Shown here: positions 2,001 through 31,583 of the stretch, piece by piece
How the letters are laid out: every line of letters begins with the position of its first letter
How positions within the stretch are numbered: the first letter of the stretch is position 1
Assembly: GCF_022760805.1 (NCBI RefSeq)
Contig: NZ_JAIVFL010000001.1
Coordinates: 1,426,001-1,490,000 of the forward strand
Length of the DNA: 64,000 bases
Direction of reading: 5' to 3'
Source: Candidatus Mycolicibacterium alkanivorans
GTDB lineage: Bacteria; Actinomycetota; Actinomycetes; Mycobacteriales; Mycobacteriaceae
The notes under the pieces: model-generated
The model's input: only the letters and a program-made list of their open reading frames with translations
Told to the model about the DNA's origin: nothing
Databases searched by the model: none
Program-made: the position numbers and the translations under genes

Positions 2001-2373
2001 GGCGAATTGTCCAGTTTTCCAGCAAACATCCAGATAGTGCGTTGCCGTCTTGGCTGAGAGTCGCTGACCAGCGCGAGCGTGGCAAACCTCAATATTGTTG
2101 ATGTCCCGGATCCACGGGGCGCGAGCCTAGCGAACACGCGCCATGTGACGGTCGGCGTACGGTACCAGGTTCTCGTGTCGGCTACTCGACAGCCGTCCGA
2201 ACAGGACGATTTCTCTGCGCGCCGGGGATTGCGAGGGCCGCGGATCGCGACGGTCCCGCTTGCTTGACGGCAAACAGCACCTTAGTATTCATCGAGGTCT
2301 TCTAAGATTCGTATCAGCAAAGCACCGAGTTCGTCTTGACCACGGCGAACCCGCACAACAAGGGGAATCGGCA
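2001..2373. other. Intergenic region upstream of secreted-protein gene
   Basis: I see no convincing gene in these 373 bases. A 62-codon GTG-started frame at 2079-2267 has no ribosome binding site or recognisable protein features. The 3' part is less GC-rich (around 2285-2320, with a TCTTCTAAGATTCG stretch) and probably carries the promoter of the following gene; AAGGGGAATCG at 2360-2370 is its ribosome binding site. Confidence 0.4.
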
Positions 2374-3735
2374 ATGGCGAAACGAGCTCGGCCGCTACTG
2401 ATGACTGGCGTGGCTCTGGCCAGCGCGACCGCGATCGTCACCTCGTCGCCGGCATTGTTCTCGCCTAACGACGCGACGGTGGTTGGCGCGCCGACGCCGA
2501 CCAAGCTGTCGTACGCGAAGTACGAGCTGACATCGATCACCGACATCACCTGGCAGGGCATCCTCGACGCCTACTGGGGCGGCTACGGCGACTACATCGG
2601 CAGCTGCTGCACGACCACCGCCGTGACGGGCGTGGATCCGGGCCTGAACTACATCAACGACACCAACCCCGATACCGAGAACGGGATCTACCCGGCCGTC
2701 GGCGGCGCTCAGCCCTACCCGAACGACCCGTACTTCCCCGGGATCAACAAGGCCGATCAACTCAGCGACGGCACCTGGCAGTATAACCGGCGTGGCGTCT
2801 ACCGCACCGGCGGCACCGGTGTCATCTACTACCTCACCGACCAAGTCCTGGACACGGCGACGCAGCTGACCGGCATCCCCATCAACCTCGACAACTACTA
2901 CTTCGAGGCCGGCGGCGTTTCGGCGCTGACCTACGTCGCGGCCGGTGAGATCTTCGGGCCCATCGGCGGTCAGGTCGTGGCCACCATCCAGGACTTGCCG
3001 TACGTCATCGCGCAGACGTTCGTTTCCGCGACCTCGGTCCTGCCGACGCTCAACATCGGACCGGTGCAGGTGGGCGGCGGCATCCTGTCCCGCGCCTACT
3101 TCAACGGCTACCCTTACCTGGGTAAAAAGTACTACGGCGCTTCTGCCATCGCCGCGTACGTGATCGACTCCATCGTGACTGCGTTCCCGGCGTCTGCCAC
3201 TGCTGCAGCGAAGACGGCAGCGGCGACACCATTGTCCGTGAGCCCAGCAGCGACCTCGACGCCGACTACCACGGGGACGGTCACCGAGAAGTCGACCACC
3301 GAGAAGTCGACCACCGAGAAGTCGACCACCGAGAAGTCGACCACCGACACCAGCAGCGAGACGCCGAAGACCGAGCCCAGCAGCTCGACCGAGGGCGGCA
3401 GCCTGACCGGCGGTGGCTCCACCGAGGGCAGCAGCTCGACGGGCGGCAGCTCTGCTGGGGCCAGCAGCTCCACCGGCGGTACCGGCTCGTCCAGCGACAG
3501 CAGCAGCTCGGACAGCGTCCCGGACCCGAAGCCGTCGACAGAGACGCAGAAGGCGGGAACCGCACGGGCGCACACCCGGTCGTCGGACAACCCGCTGTCG
3601 AAGATCGGCAAGAAGATCTCCGAAGCCATCTCGGGCAAGAAGAGCTCGGATTCGACCTCGACGAGCCCGGGCTCCGGCTCGACCTCGAGCGATTCGAGCA
3701 GCGGCCGCACCGGCTCCTCGAGCAGCGGCAGCTGA
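2374..3735 (+). CDS. Secreted protein with Ser/Thr-rich repetitive tail
   Basis: The start is set at ATG 2374 (453 residues) because AAGGGG lies just upstream and the product then begins MAKRARPLLMTGVALASA, a typical Sec signal peptide. Residues about 30-275 form a Tyr/Gly/Pro-rich extracellular domain with a Cys-Cys pair (SCCTTT) that I cannot assign to a named family. From about residue 290 to the end the chain is low-complexity Ser/Thr/Gly with four perfect EKSTT units, likely disordered and a plausible substrate for protein O-mannosylation (a pmt gene lies at 39869-41419). A strong terminator follows directly, so it is probably monocistronic. Function unknown. Confidence 0.8.
   Translation: MAKRARPLLMTGVALASATAIVTSSPALFSPNDATVVGAPTPTKLSYAKYELTSITDITWQGILDAYWGGYGDYIGSCCTTTAVTGVDPGLNYINDTNPDTENGIYPAVGGAQPYPNDPYFPGINKADQLSDGTWQYNRRGVYRTGGTGVIYYLTDQVLDTATQLTGIPINLDNYYFEAGGVSALTYVAAGEIFGPIGGQVVATIQDLPYVIAQTFVSATSVLPTLNIGPVQVGGGILSRAYFNGYPYLGKKYYGASAIAAYVIDSIVTAFPASATAAAKTAAATPLSVSPAATSTPTTTGTVTEKSTTEKSTTEKSTTEKSTTDTSSETPKTEPSSSTEGGSLTGGGSTEGSSSTGGSSAGASSSTGGTGSSSDSSSSDSVPDPKPSTETQKAGTARAHTRSSDNPLSKIGKKISEAISGKKSSDSTSTSPGSGSTSSDSSSGRTGSSSSGS
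3286..3345 (+). repeat. Four perfect 15-bp tandem repeats in coding sequence
   Basis: The unit GAGAAGTCGACCACC is repeated four times without mismatch (3286-3300, 3301-3315, 3316-3330, 3331-3345). It encodes EKSTT four times in the Ser/Thr-rich tail of the secreted protein. Perfect identity at the DNA level suggests recent slippage expansion and a possible length-variable locus between strains. Confidence 0.95.
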
Positions 3736-3747
3736 CAACGGCACACA

Positions 3748-3785
3748 ACTTCGGCCCCTCCCATCGGGAGGGGCCGAAGTTTTTG
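3748..3785 (+). terminator. Strong intrinsic terminator
   Basis: A perfect 15-bp stem (3748-3762 with 3766-3780) closes a three-base ATC loop and is followed by TTTTTG. It starts 12 bases after the stop codon of the secreted-protein gene. On the minus strand the same hairpin follows the DUF1707 gene, although without a good U-tract, so it may work in both directions between these convergent genes. Confidence 0.93.
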
Positions 3786-3810
3786 TCTGGGGGCCGAGAG
3801 GTTCGAGAGG

Positions 3811-4413
3811 TTATTGAGGCGGCTGGTCGCTGCCGCCGGCCTTGCGATTCTTGCGCTTGATTCCGACGCCACCCCACAACGAGAAACCACGGATGGTGAC
3901 CTTGGGCGCGCCGGGCGCGCCCTGGCCGTCGACGTCGTGGTCGAAACCGCCCATCACGCCGACACCCTTGACCTCGACGTTGACCTCGGGCGGCAGCAGG
4001 ATCGTCTGCCCGCCCATGATCGCGTAGGCGTGGATCTCCACATCGGCCGAAGTGAAGTCGGCGTACCGAAGGTCGACCACACCGCCGCCGAGCAGCGTGA
4101 ACGTGGTCATCCGGTCCGGCACGTTCCAGCGGCCCCGCCGCTCGAAACCGCTGAGGATCGCCAGCAGCAGCGTGGCGGGTGCCGGTTTGCCGGAGCCCCG
4201 CCGGCGGGACGGCTCTGCCACGCTCGGCAGATCGTCGGTGAGCCGGTCGAGCTCCGCATAGGTCTTGGCGGCGTAGGCCTGCGCCAGCCGACGCTCGTAC
4301 TCGCTGAGATCCAAACGCCCCTGAGCGGCGGCTTCGCCGAGCAACTGCGCGACCTGAATGCGGTCTTTGTCAGCGGCTCGCGTCGATGCGTCCCGGGGCG
4401 TCAAGTTGCTCAT
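3811..4413 (-). CDS. DUF1707 / LiaF-like C-terminal domain protein (Rv0966c-like)
   Basis: This 200-residue protein opens with a DUF1707 module (residues about 5-60, RAADKDRIQVAQLLGEA, then a DLSEYERRLAQAYAAKTYAEL helix pair). It ends with a beta-rich domain with repeated MGG turns (about 95-185, resembling the C-terminal domain of LiaF/DUF2154 proteins). No signal peptide or convincing membrane span is present. The M. tuberculosis counterpart is Rv0966c, upstream of the csoR region; here that copper locus is absent and the gene is followed by the decayed acyl-CoA operon. Related domains act in envelope-stress sensing, but no function is shown. The ATG at 4413 has no clear ribosome binding site, so a leaderless transcript is possible. 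Confidence 0.82.
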   Translation of the reverse strand: MSNLTPRDASTRAADKDRIQVAQLLGEAAAQGRLDLSEYERRLAQAYAAKTYAELDRLTDDLPSVAEPSRRRGSGKPAPATLLLAILSGFERRGRWNVPDRMTTFTLLGGGVVDLRYADFTSADVEIHAYAIMGGQTILLPPEVNVEVKGVGVMGGFDHDVDGQGAPGAPKVTIRGFSLWGGVGIKRKNRKAGGSDQPPQ

Positions 4414-4478
4414 CGGTTACGAGGGTACGACTCTGGTTCGCAACCGCAAGAGCGTTCGCTGAACTGTCACAAGATTGT

Positions 4479-4713
4479 CTACACCTGCCAATTCGGAGGG
4501 CGCTTCTGCAGAAACGCCAGCGTCCCCTCGCGAGCCTCCTCGGTGACGAACAACCGCTCCGACTCGGTTGCCAGCCGCTCGGCGTCCCGGTCGAAGCCGG
4601 CCAGGACCTCCGCTGTGGTCAGCGCCTTCGATGCCGCCAACCCCTGCGGCGAGCCGTGGCCTAGGTCCGCCACCAGCCCGGCGAGCGCCAGCTCCACGTC
4701 ATCGGCAGCCACC
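4479..4713 (-). pseudogene. Enoyl-CoA hydratase remnant (echA7-like C-terminus only)
   Basis: Only the last ~76 residues of a crotonase-family protein remain, from [11 protein letters not shown] to the end FLQKRPPNWQV, which matches the C-terminus expected for EchA7. The N-terminal two thirds, including the oxyanion-hole region, are gone. The fragment is joined directly (junction near 4705-4715) to the start of a biotin carboxylase gene in another frame. In M. tuberculosis echA7 (Rv0971c) is separated from accA2 by fadE12, so one deletion seems to have removed most of accA2, all of fadE12 and the start of echA7. Confidence 0.85.
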
Positions 4714-4887
4714 GGTGACGGTCTCGAGCCGCACCCGCAGATCGGCCTCGGCGACATGTGGCGACTGTGCGTCGGGGTCGGTGTAGACCGCGACGGTGCC
4801 GATACCGAGCCGGCGGCAGGTGGCGAAGACCCGGCGGGCGATCTCACCGCGGTTGGCGACCAGTGGTCGAGTGACCATGCTGCTCAC
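4714..4887 (-). pseudogene. Biotin carboxylase remnant (accA2-like N-terminus only)
   Basis: The frame begins GTG at 4887 (overlapping the accD-like stop as GTGA) or ATG at 4878 and reads [19 protein letters not shown], the diagnostic first strand and helix of biotin carboxylase N-domains. After about 55 residues homology stops and the frame terminates shortly after running into the echA-like fragment. The ATP-grasp domain and the biotinylated lysine domain are missing, so no acyl-CoA carboxylase alpha subunit can be made from this locus. Confidence 0.87.
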
Positions 4888-6028
4888 ATCCGGACGACGT
4901 CGAAGTTCGACGTCCCCTCGATCGGGCCATTGGGCAGGGACTCTGCCTCGATCTGGGCCTCCACAGCCGCGCGCAGTGCGGCATCAGCGTCCTCGTTGAC
5001 GGTGCCGCCGCGCGCCTCGGTGGCGGCCCCGGTTCACGATCGAGAGGACACCGGCGAGTTGGGCGCCGCCCATCACCGCGGACTTCGCACTCGGCCAGGC
5101 GAACAGAAACCGTGGGTCATAGGCGCGCCCGCACATGCCGTAGTGGCCTGCCCCGTAGGAGGCGCCGATCAACAGCGAGATGTGCGGCAACGCGGGAGTT
5201 GGACACGGCGGCAGCACCACAGCTCGCGGCTTGGGTCCCTGCTTGGCCCAGTTCGACCGGGCCACGATGCGTCGGCCGATACGGATGGCGTCGAGCTCGT
5301 CGACCGCCAGATAGTCGGCGAGACCCGACACCCGCGCATGCATCTCGGCACCGCCCAGCGACTCGTCGTCGGACTCCTCGCCGGTGGCCATCTTCACTAG
5401 CGGCGGACCGGCCAGGAAGACCTTGGAGCGTTGTTTGATCATCACGACGTGGTCGGACATTCCCGGAACGTAAGCGCCTCCGGCAGTGGAGTTTCCGAAT
5501 ACCAGCGCGATCGTCGGGATTCCCGCCGCCGACAGCCGGGTCAGGTCACGGAACATCTGCCCGCCCGGGATGAAGATCTCCTTCTGGGTGGGCAGGTCGG
5601 CGCCACCGGATTCCACCAGCGAGATCACCGGCAATCGGTTCTCCAGGGCGATCTGGTTGGCGCGCAGGATCTTCTTCAAAGTCCACGGGTTTGAGGTGCC
5701 GCCCCTGACGGTCGCGTCGTTGGAGACCAGCACGCATTCGACACCTGCGACCACCCCGATGCCGCTCACCACGCTGGCGCCCACCTGGAAGTCGCTGCCA
5801 TAGGCGGCCAGCGGGCAGAGTTCGAGGAAAGCCGAGTCGGGGTCGACAAGCAGTTCGATGCGTTCGCGGTCGGTCAGCTTCCCCCGCGAGTGATGGCGTT
5901 CCACGTACTTCGGGCCGCCGCCGCCGAGCGCCTTGGCCAGCTCACCGTCGATCTCGGTGAGTTTGACGGTCATCGCCTCCGAGGTAGGCCGGCGAGTTCG
6001 GGTCGACGGTGCTGCGAAGGGCCGTCAT
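4884..6028 (-). pseudogene. Acyl-CoA carboxylase beta subunit remnant (accD2-like), multiple lesions
   Basis: The carboxyltransferase is recognisable end to end but broken in at least four places. The true N-terminus MTALRSTVDPNSPAYL (ATG at 6028, overlapping the fadE stop as ATGA) is out of frame with the body, which starts around 5973. At about 5190-5205 the text jumps from WAKQGPKPRAVVLPP to LPHISLLIGASYGAG, losing roughly 130 residues of the usual ~530. A frameshift near 5034 follows VLSIVNR. In the shifted frame a further ~30 residues are missing between EAESLP and [10 protein letters not shown] (near 4930). The surviving segments are well conserved, indicating recent decay. Confidence 0.9.
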
Positions 6029-7131
6029 GACTGGTAGCCAAGGACTTTGGCGGCCAGTGCGGTGAGGATCTCGGTGGTTCCGCCGCCGATGCCCAGGATC
6101 CGCATGTCCCGGTACTGGCGTTCGACCTCCGATTCGGTCATGTACCCCATCCCTCCGAACAGTTGCACCGCGACCGCCTGGTTGGCCACCCATTCGCCGG
6201 ACTCCACGGCGGTGTTCTTGGCGAAGCACACCTCGGCGATCAGATCGGTGTCACCGGCCAGTTGGCGCTCCACCACGTTGCGCGAGTAGACCCGGGCGAC
6301 GTCGATCCGACGCGCCATCTCGGCGAGCGTGTACTGCACCGCCTGCCGGGAGATCAGCGGCCGGCCGAACGTCTCGCGATCCCGGCACCATTGAACGGTC
6401 AGGTCCAGGCAGCGCTGCGCCGACGAATAAGCCTGCGCGGCAAGGCCGATCCGCTCAGAGACGAAGGCCTGCGCGATCTGGGCGAAACCGGAGTTCTCGG
6501 CGCCGACCAGGTTGGCGGCCGGGACGCGGACATCGGTGTAGGACAGCTCGGCGGTGTCCGAGGAGCGCCAGCCCATCTTGTCCAGCTTCCGGGTCACCTC
6601 GAAGCCCGGGGCGCCCTTCTCCACGACGAGCAGCGACACGCCCGCCGCGCCGGGGCCACCGGTGCGCACGGCGGTGACGACATAGTCGGCCCGGACCCCG
6701 GAGGTGATGTAGGTCTTGGCGCCGTTGACGACGTAGTGATCACCGTCGCGCAGCGCGGTGGTGCGCAGGTGGCCGACGTCCGACCCGCCGCCGGGTTCGG
6801 TGATGGCCAGCGATCCGATCAACTCGCCGCGCAACGTGGGCCGGACGAACCTCTCGATCAGGCGCTCATCACCGGAGGCGACCATGTGCGGGACCGCAAT
6901 GCCGCAGGTGAACAGCGACGCGAAAACCCCAGCGGGAGTGCCCACTTCGTGGAGTTCCTCGCAGATGAGCACCGAGTCGACCGCGTCACCCCCGCCGCCG
7001 CCGACCGACTCCGGAAGTTCGGCTCCGAGCAGGCCGGTGTCGGCCGCCCGCCGGTGCAGGTCGCGGGGCAGCTCGCCGGCGCGCTCCCATTCCGCGACGT
7101 GGGGCAGGATCTCCCGTTCGGCGAAGCTGCG
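6025..7131 (-). pseudogene. Acyl-CoA dehydrogenase (fadE13-like) lacking its N-terminus
   Basis: From RSFAEREILPHVAEWERAG (near 7131) to the stop at 6025 the frame is a nearly complete acyl-CoA dehydrogenase: ITEPGGGSDVG flavin/substrate loop, GAKTYITSG, GGMGYMTESEVERQYRD and the C-terminal GGTTEILTALAAK. The first 15-20 residues and the start codon are missing. The homologous frame is fused near 7131-7136 to the tail of the AtuA-like remnant, and upstream the frame encodes only out-of-frame AtuA sequence. It is therefore probably not translated normally, although it is the least damaged gene of the operon. In M. tuberculosis the ortholog is Rv0975c. Confidence 0.82.
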
Positions 7132-7133
7132 AT

Positions 7134-7606
7134 GCCCTCGATCACGAAGTTCATTGCTCGCAGCTTGGGCAGAAGATCGCGAGTGATCGGCAAATCGTTT
7201 GTCTCTGGTAGCAATTGGCGAATGGCATCGACGGTGAGGTGATGTGCGAGCCACCGCCACTGCTCGTCGGTCCGCACCCACACACCGATGTTGGCCGCGC
7301 CGCCGTTGTCGCCGCTTCGGGCGCCGGCGATGGTGCCCAGCGGGACCCGCCGGGTGGGTGCCGCCGGCCACGGCTCCGGCAGGGCGGGAGCGTCGACGTC
7401 GGCCAGTTCGAGGGTTTCAGGAAGGTCTTGGCGTAGCCCCGCTCGGGGCTCTTCATCTTGTCGCGGCCCAGGATCGGCATGGTCAGCTCGGCCAGGTAGT
7501 CCCCGGTGAGGAAGTCCAAGTCACCGCCGGGGAGCATCTCGCGCATGGCGGCGACGCGGTCGCCATAGAAGCCCGAACAGTTGCCGATCCGCACCGCAGT
7601 CGTCAC
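7134..7606 (-). pseudogene. AtuA/DUF1446-type protein remnant (Rv0976c-like), internally deleted
   Basis: The start is GTG 7606 with AGGGGAG upstream and reads VTTAVRIGNCSGFYGDR, the typical N-terminus of acyclic-terpene-utilisation AtuA-like proteins. After about 60 residues (near 7435) the frame breaks and continues in another frame as ETLELADVDAPALPEPW and GTIAGARSGDNGGAANIGVW, the C-terminal ferredoxin-fold module of the same family. Roughly 390 residues between these parts are missing, and the extreme C-terminus is fused to the fadE-like gene. This was the first gene of the operon. Confidence 0.85.
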
Positions 7607-7763: not shown

Positions 7764-7896
7764 GGCGGAAGGGGGGCCGATCGCGGCCTGTTTTGGACCC
7801 GACGCAGGTGAGCGGCTATCCTGAGGTGCAACTGTTGGCCGCCGGCAATCCAAATGTCCCTGCGCGGCGACACCCCTGATCGAGGAGATGTACGTC

Positions 7897-8070
7897 ATGG
7901 CTGTGCCCAAGCGCAGAATGTCGCGCTCGAACACCCGCAGTCGGCGTTCGCAGTGGAAGGCCGAGGCCACCGGCTTGGTCAACGTTTCCGTCGGCGGCCG
8001 CCTGCACAAGGTTCCGCGTCGCTTGCTCAAGGCCGCGCGCCTCGGTCTCGTCGATCTCGACAAGCGCTGA
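7897..8070 (+). CDS. rpmF: 50S ribosomal protein bL32 (zinc-free type)
   Basis: The 57-residue product [20 protein letters not shown] is bL32 of the large subunit. The ATG at 7897 is chosen over the in-frame ATG at 7888 because it gives the conserved MAVPKRR N-terminus and the usual length; GAGGAG lies at 7882-7887. The protein has no Cys-X-X-Cys pairs, so it is the zinc-independent form, as in M. tuberculosis Rv0979A. Position just before mprA is conserved. Confidence 0.95.
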
Positions 8071-8146
8071 CATCGTTCGCCGGCAGCGAATTGCCCGCTA
8101 GCACGGTGTGCCTCTTAGCCCAGTCTCAGGCGTTGGGCTAACACTG

Positions 8147-8839
8147 GTGTCCGTGCGAATTCTTGTCGTCGATGACGATCGTGCCGTGCGCGAGTCGCTG
8201 CGCCGGTCCCTCTCCTTCAACGGCTACTCGGTCGATTTGGCTCAGGACGGCGTCGAAGCGCTCGATGCGATCGCAAACGAACGACCCGATGCCGTCGTGC
8301 TCGACGTGATGATGCCGCGGCTCGACGGCCTCGAGGTGTGCCGTCAGTTGCGCAGCTCCGGCGACGATCTGCCGATCCTGGTTCTGACTGCCCGTGACTC
8401 GGTGTCCGAGCGCGTTGCCGGCCTCGACGCCGGCGCCGACGACTACCTGCCCAAGCCGTTCGCGCTCGAGGAACTGCTGGCCCGGGTGCGCGCACTACTG
8501 CGCCGCACCAGCCCCGAGGAACGGTCCGATTCGGCGGTGATGACGTTCTCGGACCTGACGCTGGACCCGGTGACCCGCGAGGTGCACCGGGGCAAGCGTC
8601 CGATCAGCCTGACCCGCACCGAGTTCGCCCTGCTGGAGATGCTGATCGCCAACCCCCGCCGGGTTCTCACCCGCAGCCGCATTCTCGAAGAGGTGTGGGG
8701 TTTCGACTTCCCGACCTCAGGCAATGCGCTGGAGGTGTATGTCGGCTACCTGCGCCGTAAGACCGAAGCTGAAGGAGAACCGCGGCTGATCCACACCGTG
8801 CGAGGTGTGGGTTACGTGCTGCGTGAGACACCGCCCTGA
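8147..8839 (+). CDS. mprA: Two-component response regulator MprA
   Basis: This 230-residue OmpR/PhoB-type regulator has a receiver domain ([26 protein letters not shown], phospho-acceptor Asp in [10 protein letters not shown], Thr/Lys switch LTARD and LPKPF) and a C-terminal winged helix ([22 protein letters not shown]). The GTG at 8147 gives the same length and N-terminus ([10 protein letters not shown]) as M. tuberculosis MprA. MprA, phosphorylated by MprB, controls envelope-stress genes including sigE and pepD. The stop overlaps the mprB start by one base, so the two are translationally coupled. Confidence 0.97.
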
Positions 8840-10380
8840 TGTCGCCACTGTGGCGGCGCTCGCGGGAAGCGCGGGCGCCCGAAGAACCGAGCGCATCGCT
8901 GTCTCTGCGATGGCGAGTGATGTTGCTGGCCATGTCCATGGTGGCGATGGTCGTGGTGCTGATGGCGGTCGCGGTGTATGCGGTGGTGTCCGCCGCGCTC
9001 TACAACGACATCGACAACCAACTGCAGAGCCGCGCGCAGTTGCTGATCGCCAGCGGGTCGCTGGCCGCCGACCCGGGCAAGGCCATCGAGGGCACGGCGT
9101 ACTCCGACGTCAATGCCATGCTGGTCAATCCCGGCCGGTCCATCTATACCGCCAATCAGCAGGGCCAGACGCTGCCGGTCGGCCAGCCGGAGAAGGCAGT
9201 CATCCGCGGTGAGTTGTTCATGTCCCGCCGGACGGTGTCCAACCAGCGGGTGCTCGCGGTACACCTGCCCAACGGCAGTTCGCTACTGATCTCCAAGAGC
9301 CTGGCGCCCACCAACGCGGTGATCACCAAACTCAAGTGGGTGCTGCTGGCGGTCGGCGGGATCGGGGTGGTGATCGCGGCGATCGCGGGTGGAATGGTGG
9401 CCCGGACGGGTCTGAGACCGGTGGGGCGGCTCACCGAAGCCGCCGAACGGGTGGCGCGCACCGACGATCTGCGGCCCATCCCGGTGTTCGGCAGTGACGA
9501 GTTGGCCAGGCTCACCGAAACGTTCAACACCATGCTTCGCGCGCTGGCCGAGTCGCGCGAGCGGCAGGCCCGGCTGGTTGCCGACGCCGGGCACGAACTG
9601 CGGACGCCGCTGACCTCCCTGCGGACGAACGTCGAGCTGCTGATGGCATCGATGCAACCCGGTGCCCCGCGGTTGCCGGAGGGCGAGATGGCCGAGTTGC
9701 GTGTCGATGTCATCGCGCAGATCGAGGAGTTGTCCACTCTGGTGGGCGATCTGGTCGACCTGACTCGCGAGGATGCCGGCGGCGTGGTGCACGAGGCGAT
9801 CGACTTGAGTGAGGTCGTCGACCGCAGCCTCGAGCGGGCTCGCCGCCGCCGCAGCGATGTTCAGTTCGATGTCGAGGTCATCGGCTGGGAGGTGTTCGGC
9901 GACGCTGCTGGATTGTCCCGCGCGGTACTTAATCTGCTCGACAACGCCGCCAAGTGGAGCCCGTCCGGCGCCCATGTGGGCGTGCGGCTGCGCCAGCTCG
10001 ACGCCACGCGCGCCGAACTCGTGGTGTCCGACCACGGGCCCGGAATTCCGGCGCGGGAACGCGGTCTGGTGTTCGAGCGGTTCTACCGGTCGGCGTCGGC
10101 GCGGGCGATGCCGGGGTCGGGCCTCGGCTTGGCGATCGTGAAACAGGTTGTCGTCAAACACGGGGGCATGATTCGCATCGCCGACACGGTTCCCGGTGGT
10201 CAACCACCGGGAACGTCCTTTTTCGTGTTGTTGCCGGGCCGGCCGATCGGCCCGACGTCCTGCTCCGATTCCGCCCACTGCGAAATCACCACCACAGTCC
10301 CCAAAACCAACGGTGGCGTGGGGATTTCCGAACCCGGGGTATCGGCTGTACCGAGTGATATCTCAGTCGATTCTCAGTAG
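8839..10380 (+). CDS. mprB: Sensor histidine kinase MprB
   Basis: The 513-residue protein has two membrane spans (about residues 28-55 and 168-190) flanking a ~110-residue extracytoplasmic sensor region. A HAMP linker follows, then the H-box DAGHELRTPLTSLRTN, N-box LLDNAAKWSP and G-boxes DHGPGIPARE and GSGLGLAIV. In M. tuberculosis DnaK binds the extracytoplasmic loop and holds the kinase inactive until envelope stress. The final ~50 residues are an unstructured tail whose coding sequence contains the MprA-box-like repeat of the pepD promoter. Confidence 0.96.
   Translation: MSPLWRRSREARAPEEPSASLSLRWRVMLLAMSMVAMVVVLMAVAVYAVVSAALYNDIDNQLQSRAQLLIASGSLAADPGKAIEGTAYSDVNAMLVNPGRSIYTANQQGQTLPVGQPEKAVIRGELFMSRRTVSNQRVLAVHLPNGSSLLISKSLAPTNAVITKLKWVLLAVGGIGVVIAAIAGGMVARTGLRPVGRLTEAAERVARTDDLRPIPVFGSDELARLTETFNTMLRALAESRERQARLVADAGHELRTPLTSLRTNVELLMASMQPGAPRLPEGEMAELRVDVIAQIEELSTLVGDLVDLTREDAGGVVHEAIDLSEVVDRSLERARRRRSDVQFDVEVIGWEVFGDAAGLSRAVLNLLDNAAKWSPSGAHVGVRLRQLDATRAELVVSDHGPGIPARERGLVFERFYRSASARAMPGSGLGLAIVKQVVVKHGGMIRIADTVPGGQPPGTSFFVLLPGRPIGPTSCSDSAHCEITTTVPKTNGGVGISEPGVSAVPSDISVDSQ
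10359..10378 (+). promoter_or_regulatory. Candidate MprA box upstream of pepD
   Basis: TCTCAG occurs twice in direct orientation (10361-10366 and 10372-10377), 11 bases apart, about one helical turn, within the last codons of mprB and 66-85 bases before pepD. MprA is known to bind two loosely conserved 8-bp direct repeats at its targets, including pepD. A single TCTCAG also lies at 8124-8129, just before mprA. Confidence 0.6.
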
Positions 10381-10443
10381 TACAAGGCAAGCTGGGACCA
10401 ACGTTTCACTGCGTCTCGTCCCGAGAAAGAGCGATCTGACACC

Positions 10444-11889
10444 ATGACCGACCATCCGAGGTACTCCTCGCCGCAGCGGCCCGGCCACTCGGCGCCGAAT
10501 CAGCAAGCGGCACCGGGCTATCCGCAAGTACCCCGGGCCGGTTACCAAAAGCCTTACGACTGGCGGTACGCCACCCAGCCGCCCCCGCAGCAGTACCGGC
10601 AGCCCTACGACCCGTATCACGCTGCGCGCCAGGGCAATCCGCCCACCATGCCGGGGATGCCGCCGCGTCAGCGTTCGCGCGCGGGCGTGTTGACGGCGGG
10701 TGCCCTGGCGATCGCCGTGGTGTCCGGCGGTATCGGCGGCACGGTGGTGCTACTCGCCCATCCTGACCATCAGCGTGTGACAACCATCACGTCAGCGGGG
10801 CCCAACGGACCCGCCAGCGTGCCTGCGGCGAACCTGCCGGTGGGCTCGGTGGAGCAGGTGGCGGCGAAGGTGGTGCCCAGCGTCGTCAAGCTCGAGACGG
10901 AGCTCGGCCGCCAGTCCGAGGAGGGCTCGGGAATCATCCTGACCTCCGACGGGCTGATCCTGACCAACAATCACGTCGTCGCCGCCGCCGCGGACAAGGA
11001 ACCGGGCGGCGCTCCCGCGGCCCCACCGCCGGTCATTCCCGGTTTGCCCGGCGGGCCGACCGGACCCGGTGGCCCGATCAGCCCCGGTGGTCCCGGCGGA
11101 CCGGGTGCAGGCGCGCCCGGCGGCGCCCCGACCACCACCGTGACGTTCGCCGACGGCCGCACCGTACCCTTCACCGTCGTGGGCACCGACCCGGCCAGTG
11201 ACGTTGCCGTCGTGCGCGCGCAGGGTGTGTCGGGCCTGACCCCGATCACCCTGGGTTCGTCGGCGAACCTGCGGGTGGGCCAGGACGTCGTGGCCATCGG
11301 CTCGCCGCTGGGCCTGGAAGGCACCGTCACGACCGGCATTGTCAGTGCTCTCAACCGCCCGGTCGCCACCGGCGGTGACGTCAAGAACCAGAACACCGTG
11401 CTCGACGCCATCCAGACCGACGCCGCGATCAACCCGGGCAACTCCGGTGGTGCGCTGGTGAACATGAACGGCGAGTTGGTGGGCGTCATCTCCGCGATCG
11501 CCACCATCGGCGGCGATTCGCCCGATGCCCAGAGCGGCTCGATCGGGCTGGGCTTCGCGATCCCCGTGGATCAGGCGAAGCGCATCGCCGACGAACTGAT
11601 CAGCACCGGCAGCGCGTCGCACGCCTCGCTCGGTGTACAGGTCAGCAACGACGCCACCACGCACGGCGCCAAGATCGTCGACGTCACCAAGGGCGGCGCG
11701 GCCGACACCGCTGGCCTGCCCAGCGGTGTGGTGGTCACCAAGGTCGACGACCGGGTGATCGGCAGCGCCAACGCACTGGTGGCGGCTGTCCGCTCGCGGG
11801 CACCTGGTGAGAAGGTGACGCTGACCTACACCGATCCATCGGGGTCGCCCAAGACCGTGCAGGTCACCCTCGGGAAGGCGACCCAGTGA
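10444..11889 (+). CDS. pepD: HtrA-like serine protease PepD
   Basis: The 481-residue protein has a proline/tyrosine/glutamine-rich cytoplasmic N-terminus (1-75) and one membrane span (about 80-104). A trypsin-like protease domain follows with the triad His in LTNNHVV, Asp in PASDVAVVRA and Ser in NPGNSGGALV. A C-terminal PDZ domain begins near residue 395. Between the catalytic His and Asp strands there is a ~30-residue collagen-like Gly/Pro insert (GGPTGPGGPISPGGPGGPG). In M. tuberculosis PepD is an envelope protease and chaperone under MprA/SigE control and feeds back on that stress response. ATG 10444 follows GAGAAAGAG. Confidence 0.96.
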   Translation: MTDHPRYSSPQRPGHSAPNQQAAPGYPQVPRAGYQKPYDWRYATQPPPQQYRQPYDPYHAARQGNPPTMPGMPPRQRSRAGVLTAGALAIAVVSGGIGGTVVLLAHPDHQRVTTITSAGPNGPASVPAANLPVGSVEQVAAKVVPSVVKLETELGRQSEEGSGIILTSDGLILTNNHVVAAAADKEPGGAPAAPPPVIPGLPGGPTGPGGPISPGGPGGPGAGAPGGAPTTTVTFADGRTVPFTVVGTDPASDVAVVRAQGVSGLTPITLGSSANLRVGQDVVAIGSPLGLEGTVTTGIVSALNRPVATGGDVKNQNTVLDAIQTDAAINPGNSGGALVNMNGELVGVISAIATIGGDSPDAQSGSIGLGFAIPVDQAKRIADELISTGSASHASLGVQVSNDATTHGAKIVDVTKGGAADTAGLPSGVVVTKVDDRVIGSANALVAAVRSRAPGEKVTLTYTDPSGSPKTVQVTLGKATQ

Positions 11890-12467
11890 TCCGCGTCGTG
11901 GTTGACCAACCCATGACCGTGACCGGTGCGACTGCGCCGTTGTCCGCCGCCGGATATACGGTGAGGGCCATGGAACAGCCTGGGGAGTTGGTGGGTCGTG
12001 CTCTGGTCGTCGTCGTCGATGACCGCATGGCGCACGGCGATGAGGAGGACCACAGCGGGCCGCTGGTCACCGAGCTGCTCGCCGAGGCGGGGTTCGTGGT
12101 CGACGGTGTCGTGGTCGTCTCGGCTGACGAGGTCGAGATCCGCAATGCGCTCAACACCGCGGTCATCGGCGGTGTGGACCTGGTCGTGTCGGTGGGCGGC
12201 ACCGGCGTCACACCTCGTGACGTCACGCCGGAGGCCACCCGCACGATTCTCGACCGTGAGCTGCTCGGCATCGCCGAGGCGCTGCGTGCCTCCGGGCTGT
12301 CGGCCGGCATCACCGACGCGGGCCTGTCCCGCGGCCTGGCCGGCATCTCCGGCAGCACACTGGTGGTCAACATCGCCGGGTCCCGCTACGCCGTCCGTGA
12401 CGGCATGGCAACGCTCAACCCGCTGGCCGCCCACGTGATCGGCCAGCTCTCCAGCCTCGAGATCTAG
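11886..12467 (+). CDS. moaB2: Molybdopterin adenylyltransferase-type protein MoaB2
   Basis: MogA/MoaB-fold protein with VVSVGGTGVTPRDVTPEAT (molybdopterin-binding GGTG) and the SGSTLVVNIAGS loop. The family adenylylates molybdopterin or acts in metal insertion during molybdenum cofactor synthesis. The GTG at 11886 overlaps the pepD stop (GTGA), giving 193 residues; ATG 11916 and ATG 11970 (MEQPGELVGRALVVV) are alternatives, and conservation is clear only from the last. Coupling to pepD suggests one mprA-mprB-pepD-moaB2 transcription unit, as in M. tuberculosis. Confidence 0.92.
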   Translation: MIRVVVDQPMTVTGATAPLSAAGYTVRAMEQPGELVGRALVVVVDDRMAHGDEEDHSGPLVTELLAEAGFVVDGVVVVSADEVEIRNALNTAVIGGVDLVVSVGGTGVTPRDVTPEATRTILDRELLGIAEALRASGLSAGITDAGLSRGLAGISGSTLVVNIAGSRYAVRDGMATLNPLAAHVIGQLSSLEI

Positions 12468-12584
12468 CAGCCTTGCTTGCTGGCCCGGCGGGCGCCGTGT
12501 GCCGGCGTACCGTTTGTTAAGGGCGCCGCAAATCCGCCGGGAGTTCTTGTGTTACACGCCTGTGAACTGCACAAATGCTCCGAT

Positions 12585-12600
12585 TGTGATCTTTGTCACA
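12585..12600 (+). promoter_or_regulatory. CRP-type operator TGTGA-N6-TCACA
   Basis: TGTGATCTTTGTCACA is a perfect match to the TGTGAnnnnnnTCACA palindrome recognised by mycobacterial CRP (Rv3676) and corynebacterial GlxR. It lies 16 bases before the ATG of a 51-codon ORF and about 120 bases after moaB2. Being so close to the start codon it would overlap the core promoter and could repress. Confidence 0.75.
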
Positions 12601-12616
12601 AAATGGGCGGCCTGTG

Positions 12617-12772
12617 ATGAGTACCGCGCGCCACGATCGCCACGCAGTTAACAAGATCTTCGGCACCGAGCTGCCGCAGGAGTCTTCTGACGAACGGGAC
12701 CCGAATGCCGGCCACGAAGACTCGGAACGCGACGAGTGGCTGCGCGATAACGTTCCCCCGCATCATCGTTGA
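12617..12772 (+). CDS. Small acidic/charged ORF (51 residues) behind CRP-type site
   Basis: The frame reads MSTARHDRHAVNKIFGTELP and ends in DEWLRDNVPPHHR. It is rich in Asp, Glu, Arg and His, has no signal peptide or membrane span and looks like a real small cytosolic protein rather than chance: biased codon third positions and a compact WLRDNVPPHH C-terminus that I believe recurs in mycobacteria, though I cannot name a family. An in-frame GTG lies directly before the ATG. No strong ribosome binding site is seen. Confidence 0.6.
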   Translation: MSTARHDRHAVNKIFGTELPQESSDERDPNAGHEDSERDEWLRDNVPPHHR

Positions 12773-13136
12773 GGAACTTGCAGGTGGTGACCGGCTACGC
12801 GGCCGGGCAACTCGCGATACTCGGGAGTGGTTTCGGTTGGCGGTGGGGCCGTGTTCGGAATCCGGTAGCCCTGCGTTCAGTTCCCAGCAAACTTTCCCCG
12901 GCTATGATCAGTTCGGATCAGCGCGACGGTACGCGTTGCCGCCTCGATGCCGTGCCGTTATGTTCCTCGTGTCAACGATGAGCGAAGCGTAAGAGCGATG
13001 AGCGAAGCGTGAGAGCAGAGTGTGAGGACGCTCATTTGTCTGCCTGACGCGGTGTGCGGTGCCCGCATGTTGGGGCCCCGGCACGAACCACAAATCGGTG
13101 AGCCCCCGGGTCACCGTCGACACAGCTAGGGAGAAC
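12773..13136. other. Intergenic region with a 20-bp tandem duplication before mspA
   Basis: No convincing gene is seen in these 364 bases. A 20-bp unit CGATGAGCGAAGCGTAAGAG (12976-12995) is repeated in tandem with one mismatch (12996-13015). The 3' end holds the leader of the porin gene, with CTAGGGAGAAC (13127-13136) as its ribosome binding site. Confidence 0.6.
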
Positions 13137-13775
13137 ATGAAGGTCATCGGTCGAGTGCTGGTGGCGTTGGTCGCGGCCGTGGCGGCGTTGTTCGCCGGGG
13201 CAGGTACCTCGCATGCAGGTTTGGACAATCAGCTGAGTCTGGTTGACGGCGGTGGCCGTACGATGACGGTTCAGCAGTGGGACACCTTCCTCGACGGTGT
13301 GTTCCCGCTGGACCGCAACCGGCTGACCCGCGAGTGGTTCCACTCCGGCAAGGCCGTCTACAGCGTGGTCGGCCCGGGTGCCGACGACTTCGCGGGGACC
13401 TTGGAGCTGGGCTACCAGGTCGGCTTCCCGTGGTCGCTGGGTGTGGGCATCAACTTCAGCTACACCACCCCCAACATTCTGCTCGACGACGCCAGCATCT
13501 CCCCGGGCAACTTCAATCCGCTGGGCTCGGTCATCACCCCGAACCTGTTCCCGGGTGTGTCGATCAGCGCGGATCTGGGCAATGGCCCCGGTATCCAGGA
13601 GGTCGCCACCTTCTCCGTCGACGTTTCGGGCCCCAACGGCTCGGTGGCGGTGGCCAACGCCCACGGCACCGTCACCGGTGCGGCCGGCGGTGTGCTGCTG
13701 CGCCCCTTCGCCCGGCTGATCTCCAAGGCCGGTGACTCCGTCACCACCTACGGCGAACCCTGGAACATGAACTGA
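13137..13775 (+). CDS. mspA: MspA-family outer membrane porin
   Basis: A 27-residue signal peptide (MKVIGRVLVALVAAVAALFAG..SHA) precedes a mature chain starting GLDNQLSLVDG and ending GDSVTTYGEPWNMN, nearly identical in pattern to MspA of M. smegmatis. The octameric channel crosses the mycolate outer membrane and admits small hydrophilic solutes. The constriction-zone acid pair is kept (ILLDDASIS) but the third acidic residue of MspA (the Asp in IDDGDI) is Ser here. 212 residues is the usual length. The gene sits between moaB2 and mscL, where M. tuberculosis has no porin. Confidence 0.96.
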   Translation: MKVIGRVLVALVAAVAALFAGAGTSHAGLDNQLSLVDGGGRTMTVQQWDTFLDGVFPLDRNRLTREWFHSGKAVYSVVGPGADDFAGTLELGYQVGFPWSLGVGINFSYTTPNILLDDASISPGNFNPLGSVITPNLFPGVSISADLGNGPGIQEVATFSVDVSGPNGSVAVANAHGTVTGAAGGVLLRPFARLISKAGDSVTTYGEPWNMN

Positions 13776-13809
13776 GAGACTCCCCGAGGACGTCACAAAG
13801 TGTCTGCGC

Positions 13810-14253
13810 TCAGTCTTTGTCTGCGCTGGCGTGCTTGGCGGTGTCGGTACCGGGGCCGGTGACCTTCTTCGGCGTTCCATTCGGCTCGGCGAGCAGGTCG
13901 CGGATCTCGGTCAGCAGGCTCAGTTCGGTATCGTCGGCCTGCTCGACCTCACCCTTCTTGCGCAGCCGGTTGTAGGGGACGACAACAAGGAAGTACACCA
14001 CCGCCGCCACCAGGATGAAATTGATGAACGCCGACAGCACGACGTTGAGATCGATCGTCTGCCCGCCGCCGATGTCAATCTGGAGGATTCCGTACTCGGT
14101 GTTCTGGTCGGCCCCGATGCGGTTGATCAGGGGCTGCAGGATGCTGTCGGTGAACTTGGTGACCAGCGCGGTGAACGCCGTGCCGATGACCACGGCAACG
14201 GACAGGTCGATGATGTTGCCGCGGGAGAGAAACTCCTTGAAGCCCTTCAACAC
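13810..14253 (-). CDS. mscL: Large-conductance mechanosensitive channel MscL
   Basis: 147 residues: the N-terminal amphipathic helix and first span [27 protein letters not shown], a periplasmic loop, second span [22 protein letters not shown] and a cytoplasmic charged helix. It forms a homopentamer in the inner membrane that opens under turgor stress. The GTG at 14253 follows AAAGGTGAAG. It converges with mspA, 34 bases apart; the order moaB2-mscL matches Rv0984-Rv0985c. Confidence 0.96.
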
Positions 14254-14402
14254 GAGATCTTCACCTTTCTTGTTCGGGTTCTCTTTACTGGAGAACTCGA
14301 AGCGTAACGAGTGTGCTGCGCCGTCGACTGATAGTTTTGCGAAGGACCGGTGACATCGGACGGAAGGACTGCGACGCCGGTGCCGACCCCGCCCGGGTGG
14401 CC

Positions 14403-20442: not shown

Positions 20443-20518
20443 GGGGCTATGGCGCAGTTGGTAGCGCGACTCGTTCGCATCGAGTAGGTCGGGAGTTCGA
20501 TTCTCCCTAGCTCCACCA
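20443..20518 (+). tRNA. tRNA-Ala (anticodon CGC)
   Basis: Acceptor arms GGGGCTA and TAGCTCC pair perfectly, with a GCGC D-stem, anticodon stem ACTCG/CGAGT around loop TTCGCAT (anticodon CGC), five-base variable loop and GGGAG/CTCCC T-stem. Discriminator A at 20515 and an encoded CCA at 20516-20518. It marks the left edge of an insertion relative to the M. tuberculosis order. Confidence 0.96.
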
Positions 20519-20767
20519 GGTATTCCGCAAGCTGACCGTTCTGGTGCTGTGATTGCACCGCGGTCGTGATCGGCGCTTCTGGCGTAGTCCCGACTGCAGT
20601 CTCGCCGGCGGAGGCCTGGCATGACTGCTGGCGTCATCGTTCTGCATCGATGACACCATCTGCCCCACCCGTCACGACCTCGGTGAACTGCCGTAGCGGT
20701 GTCCGCGTGGCGCCGCGGCAGGCTTTCCTTCGTTCGATACCCTGGCCCGCATCCGACGAAAGAGACA
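20519..20767. other. Spacer between tRNA-Ala and helZ-like gene
   Basis: No gene is recognisable in these 249 bases. A GATACCCT-type -10 element near 20737 is a possible helZ promoter. I do not see a second copy of the tRNA 3' end here or further into the accessory segment. Confidence 0.4.
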
Positions 20768-20773
20768 ATGTCC

Positions 20774-23700
20774 ATGTTGGTCTTGCACGGGTTCTGGTCC
20801 GCCTCGAATGGGTTGTGCCTGTGGGCCGAGGATTCCACGCTGACGGTGACGAGCTCCAGCGACGCGTTGCGTTCGGCGCGCCCACATCCGTTCGCCGCGC
20901 CCGCTGACGCGATCGCCGCGATCCACGCCGGCAAGCCGGCCGCCGCGGTTCTGTTGCTGCCGTCGTTGCGGAAGTCGCCGCTGGACTCACCGGAGCTGTT
21001 CCGGGTCACGCCGCGCCCGGCACCAAGATCCGAAGCCGTCCTGCTGTCTTGGACGGTTCCGGTGATGTCGCTGCCCGCCGCGTCGGCGCTGACCGCGCTG
21101 GACGAGCCTGCCGCCGACGTGCGCTACGGCGCTTCCGTGGCGTATCTCGCCGACCTGGCGCTCTTCGCGCGGGAGCTGGTGGAGCGCGGCCGGGTCCTGC
21201 CCGCGCTCTCCTGCGATGAACACGGGCCGGCCGCGATCTGGCGTCCGGTGGTTCAGGGTCCCGACATCGTGACCCTGAACTCGCTGATCGCCGCGATGCC
21301 ACCGGTGTGCCGGGCCGAGCCGGAGACCCAGGACGGCCATGAGCTGGCCACTTCGGCGTTGAATGCATTCGTCGATGCGGCGGTGCGGTCGCGGTTGCCG
21401 GCCGGGATCGACTTGCTGCCGCCCCGGCGCGGCCGCCGCCCGAAACACGTTCCAGCCGAAGAAGCCTGGCTGGCCGCGCTGACCGCTCCGGATGGGCGGT
21501 TCGATTCGGACCCAGGCGAACTCGACGAGCTGGCCGAGGCGTTGCAGCCGTGGGACGCGATCGGTGCCGACGAGCCAGGCCCGGCCAGGGCGATGTTCCG
21601 GCTCACCGACACCGAGGGGCCGCACGGCCAACAGCCCGCCTGGCGGTTGGAGTTCCTGCTGCAATCTATGGCCGACCCCAGCCTGTTGGTGCCGGCGGAG
21701 CAGACCTGGGACGAAGACGGCAGCCTGCGCCGATGGCTGGACCGGCCCCAGGAACTCCTGCTCGGCGAGTTGGGCCGCGCCGTCCGGATCTACCCCGAAC
21801 TGGCGCCCGCCCTGCGCACCGCACGTCCCTCCGAAATTCTCCTGGACACCGACGGCGCCTACCACTTCCTGTCCACCGCAGCGCCCCTGCTCGACGAGGC
21901 GGGGTTCGGTGTTCTGCTGCCGGCATGGTGGGACCGGCGGCGCAGGCTCGGCATCGCCGTCTCGGCGCACACGCCGGTCGATGGGATAGTCCGCGGCACA
22001 AGCAGATTCGGCCGCGATCAGCTGATCGATTTCCAGTGGAAACTCGCGGTCGGCGACGACACCCTGACCGACGACGAGATCGCCGCGCTCGCCGAGACCA
22101 AGGCCCCGCTGATCCGGCTGCGCGGCCAGTGGGTGGCAGTCGACCCTGAGCAGCTACGTCGCGGGGTGGAGTTCCTGGCGCGCAATCCCACCGGCCAAGC
22201 GACCACGGCCGAGATCCTCGCGCTGGCCGCCAGCCATCCCGCCGACACCGACACTCCGCTGGAAGTCACCGCTGTGCGCGCCGACGGCTGGCTCGGCGAC
22301 CTGCTCAGCGGGGCGGCAGCCCAGTCGTTGCGGCCGCTGGCACCCCCGCCGGAGTTCGCCGCGGTGCTGCGTCCCTACCAGCAGCGCGGGCTGTCCTGGC
22401 TGGCCTTCCTATCCTCGCTGGGGCTGGGCAGCTGCCTGGCCGACGATATGGGGCTGGGCAAGACCGTGCAGTTGCTTGCCCTGGAGTCCGCGCAACGTCA
22501 CGACGAACCCGGTACCGGGCCCACACTGCTGCTGTGCCCGATGTCGTTGGTCGGCAACTGGCAACGGGAAGCCGCGAAATTCGCACCGGCACTGCGGGTT
22601 TATGCCCACCATGGCACGGCTCGGCTGCGCGGTGACGCGCTGCGCGAGCATCTTGCCGACATCGACGTCGTGGTCACCACCTACGCCACCGCGACCCGCG
22701 ATATCGACGAGCTCGCCGCATTCCGGTGGAACCGCGTGGTGCTCGATGAGGCGCAGGCGGTCAAGAACAGCCTGTCCCGCGGGGCCAAGGCGGTGCGGCG
22801 ATTGGAGGCGGCGCACCGGGTGGCGCTCACCGGAACCCCGGTCGAAAACCGGCTCGCCGAGCTGTGGTCCATCATGGACTTCCTCAACCCCGGCCTGCTC
22901 GGCTCGTCGGAGGTCTTCCGCACCAGGTTTGCGATCCCGGTCGAGAAGTACGGCCAGACCGAGCCGGCCGAGCGGCTGCGCAAGATCACCCGCCCCTACG
23001 TCCTGCGCCGGCTCAAGACCGACCCGACGATCATCGACGATCTGCCGGAGAAGATCGAGATCAAGCAGTACTGCCAGCTCACCGCCGAACAGGCATCGCT
23101 GTATCAATCCATCGTCGACGAGATGATGGAGAAGATCGAGAACACCGAGGGCATCGAGCGGCGCGGCAACGTGCTCGCCGCGATGGCCAAGCTCAAACAG
23201 GTTTGCAACCATCCCGCGCAACTGCTGCACGACCGTTCGCCGGTCGGTGCGCGATCGGGTAAAGTCATCCGGCTCGAGGAGATCCTGGAGGAGATCCTCG
23301 CCGAGGGCGACCGGGTGCTGTGCTTCACCCAATTCACCGAATTCGCCCAGATGCTCGTGCCGCACCTGGCCGCACGGTTCGGGCAGGACGTGGCCTACCT
23401 GCACGGCGGCACCCCGAAGAATCGGCGCGACCAGATGGTGGCGCGCTTCCAATCCGGTGATGGGCCATCGATCTTCCTACTGTCGCTGAAGGCCGGTGGC
23501 ACCGGGCTCAATCTCACCGCGGCCAATCACGTTGTCCACCTCGACCGCTGGTGGAACCCGGCGGTGGAGAACCAAGCCACCGATCGCGCGTTCCGCATCG
23601 GCCAGAAGCGAAAGGTCCAGGTGCGCAAGTTCATCTGCACCGGCACGCTCGAAGAGAAAATCGACGACATGATCGAGAAAAAGAAGGCGCTGGCCGATCT

Positions 23701-23794
23701 TGTGGTCGGTGACGGGGAAGGCTGGCTGACAGAGTTGTCCACCGGCGATCTGCGCAAGCTGTTCGCCCTGTCCGAGGGGGCCGTTGGTGAGTGA
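20774..23794 (+). CDS. helZ: SNF2-family helicase HelZ-like
   Basis: 1006 residues from ATG 20774 (ATG 20768 also possible). The N-terminal half (about 1-510) is the family-specific region ending in the SNF2_N-associated DUF. The C-terminal half is a full SNF2/Rad54-type motor: Walker A DDMGLGKTVQ, DEAQ box LDEAQAVKN, ALTGTPVENRLAELWS, helicase C LCFTQFTEFAQ, SLKAGGTGLNL and motif VI QATDRAFRIGQKR. All ATPase motifs are intact. It corresponds to M. tuberculosis HelZ (Rv2101), which there also precedes a SWIM protein (Rv2102) and a toxin-antitoxin pair, but at a different chromosomal site. Likely translocates on dsDNA; role unknown. Confidence 0.93.
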   Translation: MLVLHGFWSASNGLCLWAEDSTLTVTSSSDALRSARPHPFAAPADAIAAIHAGKPAAAVLLLPSLRKSPLDSPELFRVTPRPAPRSEAVLLSWTVPVMSLPAASALTALDEPAADVRYGASVAYLADLALFARELVERGRVLPALSCDEHGPAAIWRPVVQGPDIVTLNSLIAAMPPVCRAEPETQDGHELATSALNAFVDAAVRSRLPAGIDLLPPRRGRRPKHVPAEEAWLAALTAPDGRFDSDPGELDELAEALQPWDAIGADEPGPARAMFRLTDTEGPHGQQPAWRLEFLLQSMADPSLLVPAEQTWDEDGSLRRWLDRPQELLLGELGRAVRIYPELAPALRTARPSEILLDTDGAYHFLSTAAPLLDEAGFGVLLPAWWDRRRRLGIAVSAHTPVDGIVRGTSRFGRDQLIDFQWKLAVGDDTLTDDEIAALAETKAPLIRLRGQWVAVDPEQLRRGVEFLARNPTGQATTAEILALAASHPADTDTPLEVTAVRADGWLGDLLSGAAAQSLRPLAPPPEFAAVLRPYQQRGLSWLAFLSSLGLGSCLADDMGLGKTVQLLALESAQRHDEPGTGPTLLLCPMSLVGNWQREAAKFAPALRVYAHHGTARLRGDALREHLADIDVVVTTYATATRDIDELAAFRWNRVVLDEAQAVKNSLSRGAKAVRRLEAAHRVALTGTPVENRLAELWSIMDFLNPGLLGSSEVFRTRFAIPVEKYGQTEPAERLRKITRPYVLRRLKTDPTIIDDLPEKIEIKQYCQLTAEQASLYQSIVDEMMEKIENTEGIERRGNVLAAMAKLKQVCNHPAQLLHDRSPVGARSGKVIRLEEILEEILAEGDRVLCFTQFTEFAQMLVPHLAARFGQDVAYLHGGTPKNRRDQMVARFQSGDGPSIFLLSLKAGGTGLNLTAANHVVHLDRWWNPAVENQATDRAFRIGQKRKVQVRKFICTGTLEEKIDDMIEKKKALADLVVGDGEGWLTELSTGDLRKLFALSEGAVGE

Positions 23795-24608: not shown

Positions 24609-24655
24609 TCGGCCCGTTCGACGGCCCGCCGCCGCCGTCCCGGCGAGTTCCAACG

Positions 24656-24985
24656 TCACCCAGAGCAGTCGACCGCGACTTCGAGAGCCGTGCAGATGGC
24701 GCGCATCCGCGTCTCGGCAAGTCGGCCCAGCCGATTCACCAACACCCCGACCGAGACACTTTCGACAGAGTCCAGATTCACCGCGGAGCGGCGCGGGATC
24801 GGGTCGGAATCCGGTTCGAGGACGACCTCGCTGGCCAGCCCCCGGATGGTTGTCGTGCACGGTGCGACGAGTGTCCGTTTGAGCCGAGGGATCGCCGCGT
24901 CGCGCGAGAGCACAACGACTGGGCGTCGGCCGATCCCGGCCATTTCACACCACCACACCTCTCCGCGTGCCGGAAGTGCGCTCAC
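24656..24985 (-). CDS. MazF/PemK-family toxin
   Basis: 109 residues from GTG 24985, which overlaps the antitoxin stop as GTGA. Family features: [23 protein letters not shown] (first strands with the catalytic Arg context), [21 protein letters not shown] and [16 protein letters not shown]. MazF toxins are sequence-specific RNases that stop translation. The promoter-distal position behind the antitoxin is typical. Which of the many mycobacterial MazF types it is cannot be told by eye. Confidence 0.88.
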
Positions 24986-25218
24986 GAGGCGCCGGCCATC
25001 CGGCGCCAGGACGCCAGGTCGCCCCACTCGTCGGGCTCGTCAAGCGGGTGCTCGTCGTAGCCCGCATAGCTCGCGTCGATCTCGGCCGATCGGTGCCGAG
25101 CAAGTAATGCCCCGAGGGCCTCATCGATGAGAGCAGCGTCAGTGATTCCTGCCCGCACGCCGCGTGCACTGCTCAACAGCCCGGCGTCGACAGTGGTACT
25201 CAGGCGTATGCGATTCAT
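24982..25218 (-). CDS. MazE-type antitoxin
   Basis: 78 residues: a ribbon-helix-helix-like N-terminus ([21 protein letters not shown]) and an acidic, Trp-containing C-terminus ([17 protein letters not shown]) that would bind the toxin. It resembles mycobacterial MazE antitoxins closely. The direct repeat CATGCCAC (25216-25223 and 25227-25234) spans the start codon, 11 bases apart, and could be the autoregulatory operator. Confidence 0.88.
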
Positions 25219-25291
25219 GCCACTAGCATGCCACGGTCACGCCAGAAACGGTTCAGGTGCTTTCGAGCCGGATCCAGCTCGCCAACTCTCG

Positions 25292-28144: not shown

Positions 28145-31583
<3,439 letters not shown>

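Follow-up and report, generated by a model that had tools for sequence, protein, structure and literature searches.

Remnants of an atuA-fadE13-accD2-accA2-fadE12-echA7 operon in Candidatus Mycolicibacterium alkanivorans: probable recent loss by large deletions

The 64,000 base pairs (bp) of Candidatus Mycolicibacterium alkanivorans studied here (C1:1426001-1490000, hereafter the window; genome G000, 4,050,246 bases in 3 contigs, 99.2% complete) contain the remnants of a minus-strand operon, atuA-fadE13-accD2-accA2-fadE12-echA7, which with a probability of about 0.87 is a recently killed catabolic operon, lost via five deletions and three small insertions or deletions in a small genome. In comparison with G307, the nearest intact relative found and the reference for all sizes and residue numbers below, 5,273 of about 8,430 bp are gone (~63%). 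The region was compared by blast with 88 loci and with 120 kb of G307, and the residues left in each gene were established by tblastn with the six intact G307 proteins. The six gene names, in part adopted from an earlier note on this DNA, are those that we take to apply, and Pfam and NCBIfam matches confirm the protein families behind them. Both flanks are colinear with G307 at ~79-83% DNA identity, which excludes chance; they are also colinear with L020 (M. rhodesiae), the best-scoring named DNA relative found, so that the remnants lie at the orthologous position. Plasmid records returned a single match, from Nonomuraea, at 78.5% over 45% of the query.

Five net deletions with respect to G307, of 1,114, 153, 355, 90 and 3,561 bp, are accompanied by one 8-bp deletion near the start of accD2 and by two single-base insertions in the same gene, both of which shift the frame. 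Following the minus strand, atuA begins with residues 1-63 of 565 (7418..7606; 88.9% to G307 AtuA by tblastn, positions 1-60 of PF07287), which the 1,114-bp deletion junction inside the gene (7417..7418) joins to residues 435-530 (7131..7418; 78%). The 153-bp deletion (junction 7129..7131) took the end of atuA together with the start of fadE13, leaving residues 11-391 of 392 of the latter (6025..7129) without the natural start; these give a tblastn match of 87.8% spanning 7152-6031 and acyl-CoA dehydrogenase domains, and the new N-terminus is atuA sequence read in another frame. The first remnant of accD2 (5209..6009, residues 10-276 of 531 by tblastn) has the 8-bp deletion near its start and is followed by the 355-bp junction (5210..5241) and by two frameshifted remnants, residues 401-454 and 455-531 (4887..5190), with the 90-bp deletion at 4933; the last of them is interrupted. 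From accA2 there remain residues 1-55 of 672 (4723..4887; 85.5%), the start of Biotin_carb_N, next to the 3,561-bp junction (4720..4724) that removed most of this gene, all of fadE12 and the first 182 residues of echA7, of which residues 183-257 of 259 persist (4479..4714; 85.3% in a match at 4712-4488). fadE12 itself is absent from the locus, the only tblastn match to the FadE12 query being the related fadE13 at 28%.

The earlier note had proposed remnants of five minus-strand genes (AtuA-like, FadE13, AccD2, AccA2 and EchA7), with ~55 residues of AccA2 running into the tail of EchA7, no fadE12, and surviving start/stop overlaps. The G307 protein matches bear out the five genes at their positions, the AccA2-EchA7 junction is as described, and both overlaps are kept (ATGA at 6028-6025, GTGA at 4887-4884). 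Three of its descriptions held in kind and needed correction in size: the AtuA loss, put at ~390 residues, amounts to about 371 internal residues plus the last ~35; the FadE N-terminus, said to be lost by fusion, lacks its start and only about the first 10 residues, gone together with the atuA end; and the two frameshifts and two deletions of AccD (355 and 90 bp) stand, with a larger gap of ~124 rather than ~130 residues. The comparison with the intact operon of a close relative, which the same note had suggested as a check, returned the five deletions against the G307 operon. The five breaks recur, within some tens of bases, against L020 and the other relatives reaching that far among the best 18 of the 88 loci, one of these 18 being the window itself. 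Neither a whole carboxylase nor a whole hydratase or AtuA can be made from the operon as it stands; fadE13, which lacks its own start, is the one gene still close to full length. Judged from these remnants, the activity of the operon would be lost.

The surviving pieces contain zero internal stop codons, and their substitutions, most of which still seem to preserve the protein, point to a recent event. Parsimony with four outgroups decided whether a change fell on the window branch or on that of G307; multiple hits were ignored, so that the counts are rough. Non-synonymous/synonymous (N/S) changes in eight pooled operon pieces were 71/141 on the window branch and 54/134 on the branch of G307, which has intact genes (Fisher P 0.33), in comparison with 100/299 and 99/318, respectively, for seven flanking genes. 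The operon is thus slightly raised with respect to its own flanks on the window branch (71/141 against 100/299; P 0.03). Because the neutral N/S expectation is 1.9-2.8, this corresponds to an unconstrained share of ~4-6% of the window branch, with 95% upper bounds of 11-18%. The five deletions built up while few unconstrained substitutions did, and the recent, deletion-driven loss claimed in the earlier note agrees with five sizeable deletions, three small indels, no internal stops and an N/S close to that of the intact branch. Normal-length FadE13 proteins at 92-93% identity are listed in the protein database, and normal-length AccD2 (531 residues) is also listed, on contigs equal in length to those of three of these FadE13 proteins and presumably the same; since relatives have both at normal length, the loss probably post-dates the split from them.

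The distribution of the operon places the change on the same lineage. Counting a protein as intact when it was in one piece without stops, at least 90% of full length and at least 50% identical, all six proteins were intact in 67 of the 88 loci tested, and, among the 54 loci of the named genome collection that have full flanks, in 47. The seven full-flank exceptions all lie outside Mycobacteriaceae (Saccharopolyspora, Gordonia, Prauserella, Haloechinothrix, Streptacidiphilus, Nocardioides and one Nocardia), and the 14 further shortfalls, out of 21 in all, comprise short-contig loci, three loci short for EchA7 only (L016, L039 and L065) and three broken operons. When the whole remnant was searched in the genus, 230 of the 396 sampled genomes were scored and 230/230 matched, although a match alone does not prove an intact operon; 227 of these, including G000, were at E <=1.1e-180 and three were weak (G087, G127 and G195). 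A 261-base probe over the largest junction found some match in 394 of the 396 genomes, none in the 3.3-Mb genomes G087 and G127, and, among the matches listed, an end-to-end match in G000 only. Nearly every mycobacterium sampled has retained the operon, the 3.7-Mb genome G263 among them. The distribution places the losses on the window's lineage and speaks against gains in the relatives. Two database proteins touch this question. P0042 (M. insubricum) was considered as a shared echA7 truncation and dropped, since its upstream residues look like frame-shifted EchA7, a judgement made by eye and not by computation; and P0002 (88%, 77 residues, same start) may come from a sister species with the same deletion.

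The genome also holds a second, divergent cluster of this kind. A whole-genome search for AtuA (PF07287) found a complete copy, atuA', at 3455115-3456377 of G000 (positions 1-435 of 437 of the model), and the same search in G307 gave the native copy and no second AtuA; a carboxyltransferase search found a complete accD' at 3459994-3461415 (Carboxyl_trans 2-483 of 493). The cluster reads in one direction as accD', accA', echA', a TIGR03084/MDMPI protein and atuA'. Identity to the native set is 60% for AtuA', 63% for AccD', 52% for AccA' and 36% for EchA', and the best model for the last is EchA19, below that model's cut-off. Across G000 C1:3415657-3490519, 53,390 of 74,863 bp are colinear with contig C81 of G188 and 86-97% identical to it, the alignment falling into 12 pieces with gaps (matches of 66-76% outside the colinear order were left out as paralogs), and the second cluster sits in a 13-kb piece that is 90% identical. 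Core DNA of the two genomes is 81.5% and 82% identical in two core regions, and in view of this excess horizontal transfer is the simplest reading; a horizontal acquisition of the 75-kb stretch with its cluster is well supported by these sequence comparisons. Part of the stretch is also found in G036 at 82-90%, with a core at 81-82%. Cluster-2-type AtuA (at least 69% identity) occurs at E<=1e-200 in 51 of the 396 sampled genus genomes, including G000, and colinearity showed accD' and accA' accompanying atuA' in G188 and G036. The 75-kb stretch (L183, L184, L185, L213-L216) also includes several acyl-CoA enzyme genes, a tRNA-Thr and a third accD/accA-like pair (3471216-3474596), the latter in a section that is not colinear with G188.

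Shortening is not confined to the operon, as the 64,000 bp of the window correspond to 88,575 bp in G307. Outside the operon, net differences of up to 7.3 kb favour G307 and some smaller ones favour the window, their direction being unpolarised. Genome sizes are 4.05 Mb for G000, 5.6 Mb for G307, 6.5 Mb for G188 and 6.2 Mb for G036, and Ku is encoded in 3/3 genomes searched (G000, G307 and G188). Four further G307 open reading frames (ORFs), mechanically called and of 593, 486, 675 and 405 residues, were matched in part at window positions 31381-31685, 36220-36885, 38893-39537 and 53835-54152 (coverage 14, 46, 32 and 26%); perhaps these are further deletion remnants. The G307 alignment breaks off at 20516, a position adjoining the 3' end of a tRNA gene (20443-20515), and does not cover the 6.8 kb that follow here (20516-27303) or the 7.5 kb that follow in G307. 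Among the ORFs of this segment of the window, one of 1,031 residues is of the SNF2 helicase type, another is methyltransferase-like and others have no match in Pfam; perhaps the segment is an integrated element or a defence island.

How the operon came to be lost can be framed in two ways. Plain genome reduction, in which it was one of many dispensable functions lost without relation to the second cluster, is somewhat favoured: the window shows many net losses against G307 (not polarised) besides the four partial orthologs, and, according to PMC4347857, M. smegmatis with accD2-accA2 knocked out matched the wild type in 7H9 and was similar to it in growth on isovalerate. A function kept by nearly all sampled mycobacteria, even in a genome of 3.7 Mb, is on the other hand not usually dispensable in nature. 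Xenologous replacement, in which the acquired accD'-accA'-echA'-MDMPI-atuA' set took over the native job and the redundancy led to native loss, is possible and rather improbable. The main genes of the second cluster (those for AtuA' and AccD') are complete, the cluster's surroundings are closer to G188 than the core is, and G307, with its intact operon, has no second AtuA. However, cluster 2 does not force the loss, because G188 and G036 hold it and keep all six native genes; moreover, the low identity of AccA' and EchA' and the different gene order and partners mean that the substrate may differ, and the order of acquisition and loss is undated, the 3-14% divergence of the island from G188 bounding the transfer time only loosely. 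Three other broken operons bear on the choice. In G397 (L159), native accD2 and residues 1-624 of accA2 are gone, with AtuA, FadE13, FadE12 and EchA7 nearly full length, and this genome carries a cluster-2 AtuA at 78%, as replacement would predict. In G294 (L157), atuA, fadE13 and fadE12 are in pieces through internal losses, accD2 and accA2 were not found and echA7 is whole, whereas only fadE12 is left of the native operon in G195; neither of these two genomes has an AtuA at E<=1e-200. With a cluster-2 AtuA in 1/3 of this small, hand-picked sample, loss and cluster 2 do not go together, and on present evidence plain reduction is ahead of replacement. The bolder version of the latter, that a foreign cluster of different organisation is displacing a nearly universal mycobacterial carboxylase operon and that the genome shows the handover soon after native death, is still more doubtful.

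Two further possibilities concern the remnants themselves. A collapsed or mis-joined contig would be suspected from the single-base frameshifts, in a sequence judged from the assembly itself; it is very improbable, given a contig of 4,049,316 bases in a nearly complete genome, similar breaks elsewhere in the window, and a database entry for the echA7 remnant, a protein of 77 residues with 2 member sequences, whose contig of 5,143 bases is not one of the three in this assembly. It is also conceivable, and unlikely, that fadE13 still works from its new start while the remaining genes are dead. Residues 11-391 read through without a stop, a protein database entry of 409 residues exists (P0241) and N/S is 20/44 on the window branch against 17/53 on the G307 branch; on the other side stand the missing start and first ~10 residues, the N-terminus supplied by out-of-frame atuA and the loss of the operon partners. 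The reading of a recently killed operon has to accommodate four points that weigh against it: the fadE13 pattern of 20/44 is also expected from a gene still at work, errors in the assembled sequence may account for the two single-base frameshifts, the mycobacterial draft loci L016, L039 and L065 indicate that the operon is not uniform everywhere, and micro-homology at the junctions is not readable against G307, only about 83-86% identical in DNA.

Altogether, the recent killing of the operon may be pictured as follows. The ancestor held the six-gene operon, and in the window's lineage deletions of 90 to 3,561 bp plus three small indels took ~63% of it, in keeping with a genome that is small overall and a window that is shorter than its G307 counterpart; Ku-dependent end joining is a plausible route. 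The loss was probably tolerable, as an accD1-type carboxyltransferase is kept: the AccD1 signature given in PMC4347857 is matched 16/16 at G000 locus L165 and 15/16 at the G307 counterpart L164, so that G000 has a leucine-route carboxyltransferase. The divergent second cluster that arrived on the 75-kb stretch may have brought some relief as well. The growth defect on branched or terpenoid carbon sources anticipated in the earlier note is made uncertain by this acquired atuA/accD/accA/echA cluster, and growth on isovalerate should not reveal the loss, in view of the M. smegmatis knockout.

Around the operon, one flank comprises genes at 7790..14273 that are presumably mprA, mprB, pepD, moaB2 and mscL-like, 83.3% identical to G307 over 6.6 kb. 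In the other, a DUF1707 protein (3582..4478; PF08044) lies in DNA 78.9% identical over 3582-4720. An ORF of 491 residues at 2260-3735 of the window, with no Pfam match, carries STTEK units in a row and ends in a serine-rich C-terminus.

The recent loss of the whole operon, alongside a second atu/acc cluster, makes this genome a natural knockout for the role of AccD2-AccA2, and what the operon does can be explored with genomes that have the native copy only, both copies or a broken one. Should displacement be true, the substrate of AccD2-AccA2 could come to light from relatives that hold both clusters, a single one or none. The locus is also a clear mycobacterial example of large deletions outrunning point mutation in gene loss. 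Among the titles and abstract openings available, no literature on the decay of this operon or its replacement was found; we regard it as a new case of a known process, deletion-driven gene decay, to which the foreign second cluster adds interest.

Several known systems offer points of comparison. Clusters of the atu/liu type in Pseudomonas serve acyclic terpene and leucine/isovalerate breakdown, and in them, too, an acyl-CoA dehydrogenase, a hydratase and a biotin-dependent acyl-CoA carboxylase accompany a protein of the AtuA family, a likeness of gene content. Xenologous gene displacement resembles the present case in that a foreign homologous set is present and the native set inactivated; a common substrate and the order of events would define it, and here the likeness lies in the genes. 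The AccD2-AccA2 carboxylase is, in PMC4347857, a demonstrated complex whose role was left open; the genes broken here appear to share its gene names, and the pair is a working one in the strains described there. M. leprae, M. lepromatosis, M. lepraemurium and M. ulcerans are likewise described as having mycobacterial genes dying in a shrinking genome. In comparison with those reductive genomes, the operon of the window has no stops, few unconstrained substitutions and deletions of 90 bp to 3.6 kb, as would be expected of an early stage.

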